This document shows positions 54,652 to 59,486 of a stretch of 64,000 bases of DNA, piece by piece. The notes beneath the pieces were generated by a model. That model searched no databases, was not told where the DNA came from, and saw only the letters and a list, made by a program, of their open reading frames with translations. How positions within the stretch are numbered: position 1 is the stretch's first letter; each line of letters begins with the position of its first letter. This DNA comes from Sulfurovum sp. TSL6 (lineage in GTDB: Bacteria > Campylobacterota > Campylobacteria > Campylobacterales > Sulfurovaceae). The translations under genes were made by a program, and so were the position numbers. The DNA lies in the NCBI RefSeq assembly GCF_019972115.1, contig NZ_BPFJ01000001.1, positions 310,001-374,000 of the forward strand, written 5' to 3'.

Positions 54652-56454
54652 ATGGCTAAAAAATATATTGATGTAATGGACACAACCTTTAGAGACGGAT
54701 TTCAGTCTGTCTTTGGCGGTCGTGTACTTATGGATGATTTTTTCCCTGCAGTAGAAGCAGCGAAGAATGCAGGTATTAATCACTTCGAATTTGGTGGAGG
54801 AGCAAGATTCCAATCACTGTTCTTTTACTTACAGGAAAATGCATTTGAGATGATGGACGGTTTTAGAGAGATCGTAGGACCGGATGCTAACCTTCAAGTA
54901 CTTTCACGTGGTATCAACACAGTAATGCTTGATACAGGTAGCCGTGAAATGATCGAACTTTTTGCAAAAATGTTTAAAAAACATGGTACAACAACCGTAC
55001 GTAACTTTGATGCACTGAACGATGTGAATAACCTTGCATTCTCTGCAGAAATGATCAAAAAACATGGTCTTGACCATGAAGTTGTGGTCACAATGATGGA
55101 CCTTCCTCCAGGATGTAAAGGTGCACATGATGTTGCTTTTTACGAAAAAACACTGAGAAATATTTTAGACTCGGGTATCTCTTATGACAGCGTATGTTTT
55201 AAAGATGCATCAGGAACTGCAAATCCTCATAAAGTATATGAGACTATCGCAATGGCAAGAAAGCTTCTTGGTGACAGTGTACACTTAAGACTTCACACAC
55301 ATGAAACAGCAGGTGTTTCAGTCGCATCTTACCTTGCAGCACTAGATGCAGGGGCAAATGGTATCGATATGGCAGCATCACCGGTAAGTGGTGGTACAAG
55401 TCAACCGGATATCCTTACAATGCTTCATGCAACAAAAGGAACAGATTATAATCTTGGTGACCTACAGCTTGATAAAATTCTGAAGTATGAAGAGAGACTT
55501 AAAGAGTGTCTTTCTGACTACATGATACCGCCTGAAGCAACACAAGTATCACCTCTTATCCCATTCTCACCTATGCCTGGTGGTGCATTGACAGCAAACA
55601 CGCAGATGATGAGAGACTCTGGTGATCTTGAAAAGTTCGACGAAGTGATCGGTGCGATGAAAGAAGTCGTAGAGCGTGGCGGTTATGGTACATCTGTAAC
55701 ACCAGTGAGTCAATTTTACTGGCAGCAGGCTTATGCCAACGTGATGTTCGGACCATGGAAGCAGATAGCTCCAGGATATGGACGTATGGTACTTGGTTAC
55801 TTTGGTAAAACACCAGTACAAGCAGATGAGGAGATCATCGAACTTGCATCTAAAAAATTGGACTTAGAGCCTACCACAGAAAATCCTTTAGATATTGCTG
55901 ATAGAGATGAAACAAAATCTATCGCACACTGGACAAAAGTACTTGAAGATGAAGGGTTGGAAACTTCAGATGAAAACATCTTCATCGCAGGTGCATGTGC
56001 TGAAAAAGGTATTGCGTTCTTGAAGGGTGAAAGTCCTCTCATGGTAAGAAAAAATGATGAAAATATAAGTAATGGAGAAGCAGATATGGCAGGGAATTAT
56101 ACAGTAGTAGTAGATGGTAAACAATATAGTGTACAAGTAGCAGAGGGTGAGGGAGATATCCAAATAGCACCTGCAACACCGGCACAAGTAAATGCAGTAG
56201 CAGAATCAGCAACACCAGCATTGGTACCGGGTGCAGCGGGAAGTGTGGAAGTACACTCACAGACACCAGGTAATGTATGGAAGATCGTTAAAAACCCGGG
56301 TGATACTGTTGCTGAAGGTGATGTTATTATGATTCTTGAAGCGATGAAGATGGAAATTGATATCGCTGCACCAAAAGCGGGTAAAATTGCCTCAATCAAT
56401 GTCAACGTCAACGATTCAGTCGCAGACGGACAACTTCTAGCCACAATGGAGTAA
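54652..56454 (+). CDS. oadA: Oxaloacetate decarboxylase alpha subunit (biotin-carrying carboxyltransferase)
   Basis: A 600-residue protein: carboxyltransferase TIM barrel (about 1-290), PYC/OADA conserved domain (290-465), a flexible linker rich in Ala/Val/Glu (about 485-540) and a biotinyl domain with the biotin lysine near 566 (EAMKME). It moves CO2 from oxaloacetate to biotin, giving pyruvate. Metal ligands are visible as Asp in [10 protein letters not shown], Lys in CFKDASG and the HTH pair. The DGFQS and EFGGGARF segments differ from the family DAHQS and EMWGGATF, marking a divergent branch. Operon with oadG and oadB. Confidence 0.88.
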
Positions 56455-56456
56455 GC

Positions 56457-57782
56457 ATGAAGCTCAAACATCTTTTACTCTCGATGATGTTTGCTTTTAC
56501 AGCACTCACATCAACAGTGCAAGCCAGTGTGCATGAAGCACCTGCTGCCCCAGCGCAAGAAGAACAAGTCTATGAACCTAAATCTATCACTCAACTTCTT
56601 GTAAGCTTTTTTGAAACGACAGGTCTCAATGCCATGGTAAACCCGGAAGAGGGTGTCAAAAATGGTCATGGTGATGAGATGAGTCTATTTGCCCAAAGTT
56701 GGGGTAAACTTATTATGTTTACTATCATCTTTATACTTTTCTATTTAGCTATTGCTAAAGGATTTGAACCACTTCTTCTTTTACCTATTGCTTTTGGTGG
56801 ACTTCTGGCCAATATACCTATCGCTAATATGACAAGTGATCATGGAATGCTAGGTATTATCTACAATATGGGTATTGCTAACGAATTCTTTCCTCTACTG
56901 ATCTTTATGGGTGTTGGAGCAATGACAGACTTCGGACCACTTCTTTCTAATCCTAAAACAGCACTTCTTGGTGGGGCTGCTCAGTTTGGAATCTTTGGCT
57001 CATTGGTTGGTGCCGCTGCACTTTCTCAGTATACTGGAATGGTAGACTTTACACTTAAGCAGTCTGCAGCGATCAGTATCATTGGTGGAGCGGATGGTCC
57101 TACATCTATATTTATCGCGTCAGCATTGGCACCGGAACTTCTTGGAGCTATCGCAGTTGCTGCGTATTCATATATGGCATTGGTTCCAGTGATCCAACCT
57201 CCGATAATGAGAGCCTTAACGAATAAAGAAGAGCGTCAGATCGTAATGAAGACAACAAGAAAAGTGAATAGACTTGAAAAGCTTATTTTCCCTCTAATCG
57301 TTATTATGATGATCGCATTGATCTTACCGGACGCAGCACCACTTATGGGTTCTTTTGCACTGGGTAACTTTGCAAAAGAGTCAGGCGTTGTTGATAGACT
57401 TTCAAATGAGATGCAAAACTCACTCATTAACATTGTAACTATCTTCCTTGGTCTTGGTGTGGGTTCTAAATTGGCTTCAGATTCGTTCTTGGTAGCTGAG
57501 ACAATGGGTATTATGATCATTGGTCTTCTTGCATTCGCTGCAGGTACAGCGGCAGGTGTGCTCATGGGTAAAATTATGAACAAATTTTCTAAAGAACCTA
57601 TCAATCCACTTATCGGTGCAGCAGGGGTTTCTGCAGTACCGATGGCAGCAAGGGTTGTAAGTAAAGTTGGTTCTGAAGAAAAACCGGGTAATATTCTGCT
57701 TATGCATGCCATGGGTCCAAACGTGGCTGGTGTTATCGGTTCAGCCGTAGCAGCAGGTGTACTACTTTCTATCTTTAAATAA
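56457..57782 (+). CDS. oadB: Oxaloacetate decarboxylase beta subunit (sodium pump)
   Basis: A 441-residue membrane protein that couples carboxybiotin decarboxylation to Na+ export. After a signal-like N-terminus ([23 protein letters not shown]) come about nine to eleven membrane segments with the family blocks [35 protein letters not shown] (Asp of the Na+ site) and the closing [15 protein letters not shown]. The N-terminal extension of about 75 residues is longer than in Klebsiella OadB. It starts two bases after oadA and is followed by paired hairpins, then pckA. Confidence 0.94.
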
Positions 57783-57797
57783 AGTAGTTTCACATAT

Positions 57798-57823
57798 TAT
57801 GCTTCCTCTAGTGAGGAAGCATA
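57798..57823 (+). promoter_or_regulatory. First hairpin of the oadB-pckA spacer
   Basis: TATGCTTCCTC (57798-57808) pairs perfectly over 11 bp with GAGGAAGCATA (57813-57823) around a TAGT loop. It starts 16 bases after the oadB stop. Its right arm shares bases 57817-57823 with the next hairpin, so both cannot form at once. Confidence 0.7.
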
Positions 57824-57859
57824 AGTTAGAAAATAATAGATATTTTCTAACTTATGCTT
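57817..57859 (+). promoter_or_regulatory. Second, longer hairpin of the oadB-pckA spacer, overlapping the first
   Basis: A perfect 19-bp inverted repeat (57817-57835 with 57841-57859) around a five-base ATAGA loop. It ends 38 bases before the pckA start. A further small stem ATGC-TTTA-GCAT (57854-57865) overlaps its right arm. No U-run follows, so it may act as attenuator, RNA processing or stability element rather than simple terminator. Confidence 0.7.
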
Positions 57860-57896
57860 TAGCATGATAAAAATAAAAGAAAGAAATAGGATACTT

Positions 57897-59486
57897 ATGA
57901 GTACTAAAACGCCCAACGGACTTGATAAACTAGGATTGAAAGATATCGGAGATGTCTATTACAATTTAAGTTATGACGAGTTGCAAGCGCACGAAGTAAA
58001 CAGCGGAGAGTGTAAGATCTCAACATCAGGTACAGCAATGTGTGATACAGGAATCTTCACAGGACGTAGTCCTAAAGATAAATATTTTGTTGATCAAGCA
58101 CCTTCAAATGAACATATTGCTTGGGGTGATATCAATGCTAAGATAGATAAAGAGATCTATGATGAACTCCTTGATCTTATATTAACTCAACTTTCTGGTA
58201 AGAACATTTATGTGACAGATGTTTATGCAGGAGCAAGTGCTGCAAGTAAACGTTCTGTACGTTTTGTCACTGAAGTGGCATGGCAGGCACACTTTGTTAA
58301 AAATATGTTCATCCGTCCTACCGAGTCTGAACTCGAAAGATTTGAACCAGACTTCACTGTCTATAATGCATGTAAAGCAGTAGATGAAAAGTATAAAGAA
58401 CATGGATTGAATTCTGATGTTTTTGTAGTGTTTAATGTAGAAGAAAACGTGGGTATCATTGGTGGAACATGGTATGGCGGTGAGATGAAAAAAGGTATCT
58501 TCTCTATGATGAACTACTGGTTGCCACTTGAGGGTAAACTTTCTATGCACTGTTCTGCCAATGTAGGTAAAGAGGGTGATGTATGTCTATTCTTTGGACT
58601 TTCAGGTACAGGTAAAACAACGCTTTCCACAGATCCTCAAAGGGCACTTATCGGTGATGATGAACATGGTTGGGACAATCATGGTGTCTTTAACTTTGAA
58701 GGCGGATGTTACGCGAAAGTGATCAATCTTGATGAAAAATCCGAACCAGAGATCTATGGTGCGATTGTGAAAGATGCACTTTTGGAAAATGTTGTCGCGG
58801 ATGATAATGGTGAGGTTGATTATACGGATGGTTCTAAAACAGAGAATACACGTGTTTCATATCCTATAGAACATATTGAAAATCATAAAAAAGACTTACA
58901 GGCAGGTCATCCAAATAACATTATCTTCCTTTCAGCGGATGCATTTGGTGTATTGCCTCCGGTAAGTAAACTGACCAAAGAACAGGCAATGTATTATTTC
59001 CTTAGCGGATATACAGCTAAAGTGGCTGGAACAGAGAGAGGTATTACTGAGCCAGTAGCAACATTCTCTGCATGTTTTGGTGAAGCATTCTTGCCATTGC
59101 ACCCAACTGTCTATGCTAAACTTCTTGGTGAGAAGATAGATGAACATGGAGTAAATGTATACCTTGTAAATACGGGATGGACAGGTGGTCCTTACGGTAC
59201 AGGTAAGCGTATGAGTATCAAAAATACGAGAGCATGTATCGATGGTATCTTGAGTGGTGCTATCTTAGATACTGAGTTTGAAACCCTTGATACCTTTAAT
59301 CTTGCAATCCCTAAAACATTGGATGGTGTAGATACGGCTGTACTTAATCCGAGAAATACATGGGAAGACAAAGATGAGTATGACGCAATGTTAGCGAAGC
59401 TTGCTGGTATGTTCCAAGAGAATTTCCATCGTTATGATGGAAATGGTGACGAGTTTGACTTCGCATCTGCAGGTCCTCAACTATAA
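57897..59486 (+). CDS. pckA: ATP-dependent phosphoenolpyruvate carboxykinase
   Basis: A 529-residue PEPCK that converts oxaloacetate and ATP to PEP, CO2 and ADP (or the reverse). Signatures: [12 protein letters not shown], the metal/oxaloacetate site around [20 protein letters not shown], the kinase-1 P-loop [14 protein letters not shown] and [15 protein letters not shown], and [18 protein letters not shown] take ATG 57897, after ATAGGATACTT, rather than the upstream in-frame ATG. Downstream of oadGAB, the enzymes would partition oxaloacetate between pyruvate and PEP. Confidence 0.97.

Follow-up and report, generated by a model that had tools for sequence, protein, structure and literature searches.

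Structured leaders and attenuators of mRNA, which can form alternative hairpins, constitute a general class of systems, and the hairpins that act in processing and stability between the cistrons of operons constitute another. Three stem-loops located between oadB and pckA in Sulfurovum sp. TSL6, within a window of 64,000 nucleotides (the whole stretch of DNA that was analysed), are compared here with both classes. An element with these structures, this conservation and strand, a single copy per genome and a fixed place before pckA is probably a lineage-specific, cis-acting structured RNA of the oadAB-pckA intercistronic region, i.e., a pckA leader. A literature search at the level of listings and the beginnings of abstracts returned nothing on it.

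In the window, an oadA-like gene of the decarboxylase alpha or pyruvate carboxylase B type (54652..56454, + strand, called as an open reading frame), whose top NCBIfam model is TIGR01108 oadA at 300 bits, under the curated cut-off of 756.5, is followed on the same strand by oadB (56457..57782), coding for the beta subunit of a sodium ion-translocating decarboxylase, and by pckA (57897..59486), coding for an ATP-type PEP carboxykinase. The initial annotation had placed the hairpins between oadB and pckA, which the open reading frames and the NCBIfam models TIGR01109 (521.8 bits, cut-off 190.6) and TIGR00224 (768.9 bits, cut-off 590) bear out. Both oadAB and pckA, the genes flanking the element, code for oxaloacetate-consuming enzymes. 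The pckA start at 57897 is backed by relatives, and a Shine-Dalgarno-like AGGAT can be read upstream of it (57888..57892, + strand), at the place where many relatives have AAGAGGATAC. A longer pckA open reading frame is also found, with an in-frame ATG at 57864 that lies within hairpin C (window 57864-57899).

The gap between the oadB stop (57782) and the pckA ATG is filled by stem-loops A, B, and C on the + strand. Hairpin A (57797-57808/57813-57824), directly 3′ of oadB, is a perfect stem of 12 bp with a loop of 4; hairpin B (57817-57835/57841-57859) is a perfect stem of 19 bp with a loop of 5; and hairpin C (57854-57857/57862-57865), read from the sequence, is a 4-bp stem AUGC/GCAU with the loop UUUA. 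Perfect stems of 11 and 19 bp sharing 57817-57823 had been described earlier: both are present and the 19 bp are right, but A has 12 bp, and the stretch that its 3′ arm shares with the 5′ arm of B is 8 nt long (57817-57824). The third small stem, said to overlap the 3′ arm of the second, is C, whose 5′ arm sits within the 3′ arm of B. Two short arms thus lie in B, namely arm 2 (57817-57824) and arm 3 (57852-57859), the latter being common to B and C. A pairing absent from the initial annotation appears in the minimum-energy fold, which is a three-way junction (57795..57869, + strand) formed by pairing between the 5′ side of A and the 3′ side of C: the helix that closes it (57795-57803/57861-57869) joins arm 1 to arm 4 and surrounds the top of A and the full B. 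The region 57780-57900 folds at -37.1 kcal/mol (z -6.6), and none of 200 dinucleotide shuffles is as low. Since the reverse strand folds too (z -7.0), the strand is not decidable from the window sequence alone. The scan of 57500-58100 calls no terminator-like site, in agreement with the earlier remark that no U-run follows and that a plain terminator does not explain the hairpins; a Rho-independent terminator in the window was accordingly rejected.

Known families and repeats were also considered. Rfam release 15 gives no match in the window at the gathering threshold, on which a known Rfam family was rejected, and nothing close under relaxed limits, the top weak match being idnO on the opposite strand (29.1 bits vs. 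100). By DNA comparison, the TSL6 genome (G000) holds no second copy, the other matches having E-values of 0.1 or worse apart from self-matches of the palindrome, and model R1 finds only the element's own place there. Many identical copies genome-wide, which the initial annotation had named as a sign of a simple repetitive element, were therefore not found. A dispersed or mobile repeat (REP- or MITE-like) was rejected on this single place and on the one same-strand site per genome seen across Sulfurovum; G083 has two same-strand sites and two pckA contigs.

pckA is present in 76 of the 78 Sulfurovum genomes searched, and 73 upstream loci from 72 genomes were read. A, B, and C occur together in 52 of these loci; a variant with a longer C occurs in four (L030, L035, L047, and L156); A and B are kept with a decayed C in L034; another sequence precedes pckA in L042 and L183; and the spacer is 12-25 nt long, with no element, in the other 14 (16 nt in L182, by eye). 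These short-spacer loci, together with L247 of genus g32, a locus of the same family whose short spacer holds neither B nor C, show that the element is dispensable. Among the unread genomes, G062 and G068 have an R1 match to the element ahead of pckA, and G001 and G022 have a pckA match without gene start. R1 yields 55 same-strand matches directly before pckA in 54 of the 78 genomes, with two in G083 and a weak one in G025 (E 4e-4), and five weak matches elsewhere (two in G022, two in G011, and one in G006; E 0.005-0.04), under the stricter filters of this genus-wide search, by which weak matches can be lost. Over 398 genomes drawn from the order, R1 matches (E up to 1e-4) are confined to genus g1, in 14 genomes; when the family is searched (175 genomes), one more genome is gained, G134 of genus g27, where the match directly precedes pckA and is the only one of three marginal matches outside g1 to lie at pckA (those of G139 and G181 do not). 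pckA was also searched in the 175 family genomes for the flanks of other genera, where the loci read have an oadB-pckA gap of 10-50 nt in many cases and oadA or another gene upstream in the rest. As R1 is blind to the g32 form, the distribution given by this model is a lower bound. Going by its recurrence in these genomes, the element is maintained in dozens of related species.

Helix B carries the clearest record of covariation. In alignment A1, made of 47 distinct sequences from the 52 loci chosen for carrying AUGC-n-GCAU (L064 and L068 were left out as repeats of L165 and L178, and L162 and L179 were added manually once they had been checked against the loci), 727 of 752 cells of the helix are paired (96.7%), and double-sided changes occur in 9 of 16 pairs. 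Its covariation score is 0.406 vs. 0.159 in shuffles (0/500 reach it), while slid partners score 0.04-0.11 and pair in 40-55%; no measure for B is matched by any of the 500 shuffles, and RNAalifold recovers the helix unprompted. G.U cells number 82 and A.C cells 4, an excess that neither an opposite-strand helix nor a DNA palindrome would give, so that B is a + strand RNA. The 45 reverse-strand mirror matches of R1 all lie 16-38 bits below their forward match. Covarying secondary structure on the strand of the gene, the mark of a cis-regulatory leader RNA, is therefore found here. The bottom pairs of B scarcely covary in Sulfurovum; a weak U.G pair stands at the base in 39 of the 47 sequences from Sulfurovum and 27 of the 31 from g32, and where it does, arm 3 holds the letter that fits C.

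Hairpin C is invariant in all 47 distinct Sulfurovum sequences, which were themselves picked by the AUGC-n-GCAU motif; because it never varies in the main form of this genus, covariation is uninformative for C there. In g32, 31 of 32 loci have B then C in quite different letters, and L247 was left out of the counts of pairing, promoter boxes, and folding (n = 31). The g32 hairpin C is UUUGCUAU/AUAGCAAA, with 233 of 243 cells paired; for B, 557 of 589 cells are paired. These counts retain L240 and L248, in which the script paired a poor distant arm though UUUGC/GCAAA adjoins arm 3. Within C, a G-C pair has become A-U in L231 and L241, although a B pair breaks, and a C-G pair has become U-A in L273. 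G.U and A.C cells amount to 20 and 0 in C, and to 65 and 6 in B, while the length of the C loop varies widely. The covariation in relatives that the initial annotation had suggested looking for is thus found, as double changes in B and as compensatory changes in the C of g32. A DNA operator or palindromic protein site was rejected on the Sulfurovum G.U to A.C counts in B and on the variable C loop of g32. In the predicted folds of variant Sulfurovum loci such as L047, the foot of B runs into the foot of a longer C′ (four sequences compared by eye, a weak observation). Judging from these alignments, B and C are both kept by selection, and the conserved mutually exclusive pair is B vs. C, in which the base of B and C share arm 3.

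Hairpin A is universal in place and free in sequence among the 52 element-bearing Sulfurovum loci, all of which have a best hairpin directly after the oad stop. As such a search yields a best hairpin anywhere, a shuffle test was used as control: the region from the stop to B, plus 9 nt of B, beats its shuffles in 50 of 52 loci, compared with 8 of 52 for the 45 nt that follow C. At least 5 T within the 8 nt after A are seen in 13 of 52 loci. The overlap of A with B, 3-9 nt long, is found in 13 of 52 loci and is absent from 39; on an oadB tree of 450 columns with poor resolution (22 of its 91 inner branches are open), which covers 12 of the 13 overlap loci, its state changes at least eight times, with six changes forced by starred branches, and the overlap hence comes and goes. 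Consequently, the two-state architecture proposed at the outset holds in part: the helices are exclusive and conserved, and they are neither a terminator in this genome nor a repeat, but the conserved pair is B/C rather than the A/B pair.

In the window and 12 other Sulfurovum loci, A stands in register with the other helices, giving four short arms. A first state, 1:2 + 3:4, would consist of A, the top of B, and C in a row, and a second, 1:4 + 2:3, of a three-way junction with the full B. These two four-arm folds compete in the overlap class, for which pC is predicted to lie between 0.1 and 0.9 in 7 of 13 loci. For the window, the three-way state is ahead by about 3 kcal/mol (-36.1 vs. -33.0; pC 0.01), bearing in mind that the forced "A+C" energies require the full A arm and may exceed the best fold of that type, e.g., in L023. 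Non-overlap Sulfurovum loci have a median pB of 1.0 and a pC above 0.1 in 7 of 39, as do 4 of 31 g32 loci for pC. Arms 1 and 3 resemble each other, as do arms 2 and 4; given three of the pairings, the fourth must follow, and it therefore adds no independent support. That B is predicted to be ahead at equilibrium in most loci argues against a balanced thermodynamic switch; a kinetic or factor-driven switch could still have room to operate.

The link with pckA is indicated by position. The element stays with pckA where the preceding stop codon belongs to an oadA-like gene and not to oadB (L034 and L148). Of the 51 loci that could be placed (all but L179), 40 have a distance of 25-34 nt from the end of C to the ATG, and 11 a distance of 55-123 nt. 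An insert of about 90 nt in L023 (1400-1500), L028, and L144-L146 gives a C-pckA distance of 120-123 nt in these five loci; a core common to the L023 insert, L028, and L042 can be made out by eye, L042 being without the B/C element, and a 101-nt probe from L023 matches only at its source in G026 and weakly at one site in G012 that is not the L028 place, with no match in G000 or G032. At a single temperature, the predicted mean unpaired probability of the Shine-Dalgarno bases has a median of 0.55 over 51 loci, is below 0.3 in three, and is 0.51 in the window; sequestration of the Shine-Dalgarno sequence was rejected, as its bases are without strong pairing. A leader peptide was dropped as well, the window ATG frame over A-B-C meeting an early stop in one relative, L023. 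Upstream, a TCAATAGTATAAT-like (TATAAT-like) box stands 66-107 nt before arm 3 in 26 of 31 g32 loci, a position that would make B and C part of a pckA leader in this genus. In Sulfurovum, only 4 of 52 loci have TATAAT anywhere from the oad stop to the ATG, so that read-through from oadB is the likelier source of the RNA in that genus. In L225, L231, L234, L241, and L248 of g32, a promoter-like TTCAATAGTATAAT precedes arm 3, and in several species its inverted complement comes next; this -10 region could form a hairpin or an operator. Four loci of genus g23 (L226, L233, L235, and L238) have a hairpin and a long T-run between oadA and pckA, in the classical shape of a terminator.

Several explanations can be set beside a cis-acting leader. 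The element could mark an ordinary transcript boundary, with A as the intrinsic, possibly leaky, terminator or 3′-end hairpin of oadAB, and with B and C protecting mRNA ends without any switching. The hairpin that follows every oad stop, the T-rich stretch after it in a quarter of the loci, the g23 hairpins with T-runs, and the one fold favoured at equilibrium all speak for such a boundary; nevertheless, the window and 38 other loci of the 52 have no such T-run, the B/C overlap persists in both genera, and in L231 and L241 C covaries to the detriment of B, which passive protection would not need. This reading is consequently possible but doubtful. It is quite unlikely, in turn, that the conserved letters belong to a promoter for pckA, whose -10 box would be arm 3 (TATGCT in Sulfurovum and TTTGCTATA in g32) downstream of the T-rich B arm, and that arm 4 pairs with it only incidentally. 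Promoters of Campylobacterota often lack a -35 box, the ATGC of arm 3 is invariant in A1 behind T-rich DNA, and the usual distance from the end of C to the ATG would suit a promoter. On the other hand, the G.U bias in B and C is explained by RNA transcribed through the element, g32 mostly has another promoter-like box upstream of B, arm 4 compensates for changes in arm 3 in that genus, and no consensus promoter is called at the site in the window. As for a metabolite riboswitch, mutually exclusive helices before a gene of central metabolism are what one would look for, but the loops vary in length and letters and show no conserved unpaired core, arms 2-4 are spelled differently in the two genera, and the weak Rfam matches fall far under the gathering scores; the columns invariant in Sulfurovum are the B stems and AUGC-UUU-GCAU instead of conserved unpaired nucleotides. 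Such a sensor is thus very improbable.

For the leader RNA that we favour, we infer that the element acts in cis on pckA. Its output, with less certainty, would be post-transcriptional, through processing or stability of the oadAB-pckA message or through ribosome access, since neither a terminator nor a conserved ligand core is seen and the Shine-Dalgarno bases are not strongly paired. The competing hairpins may tune the amount of PEP carboxykinase made, and the RNA may switch between two states, the base of B and C excluding each other through their common arm 3. The working order would likely be co-transcriptional: an upstream hairpin or a bound factor capturing arm 2 would let C form, and arm 2 left free would let B form. 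A bolder proposal, which we regard as unlikely, is a ligand-free four-arm exchange switch (1:2 + 3:4 vs. 1:4 + 2:3), resembling a Holliday junction within one RNA, that would set sodium-coupled oxaloacetate decarboxylation against PEP formation by the order in which the arms are transcribed; the A/B overlap would then have evolved repeatedly atop an older B/C competition.

With this locus, the oxaloacetate node of Sulfurovum and of a related genus gains a well-supported RNA element that has no match in Rfam. About 50 Sulfurovum loci and 31 loci of the second genus form a natural series in which the degree of helix overlap varies, and they offer a good system in which to ask whether the order of folding can by itself give regulation when helices compete and no ligand pocket is present. 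Compared with Rho-independent terminators, the element has a hairpin A that is followed by a T-run in 13 of 52 relatives, but the window scan calls no terminator. Like structured leaders and attenuators, it has helices that share a strand, exclude each other, and lie upstream of a metabolic gene on the same strand; unlike them, it has no terminator called in the window, and no conserved leader peptide or ligand core is seen. It also resembles the intercistronic hairpins of processing and stability, being made of stem-loops between co-directional genes, fixed in place and variable in sequence. Unlike those hairpins, however, it keeps the overlap of two helices, and it is kept before pckA even after the stop of an oadA-like gene.
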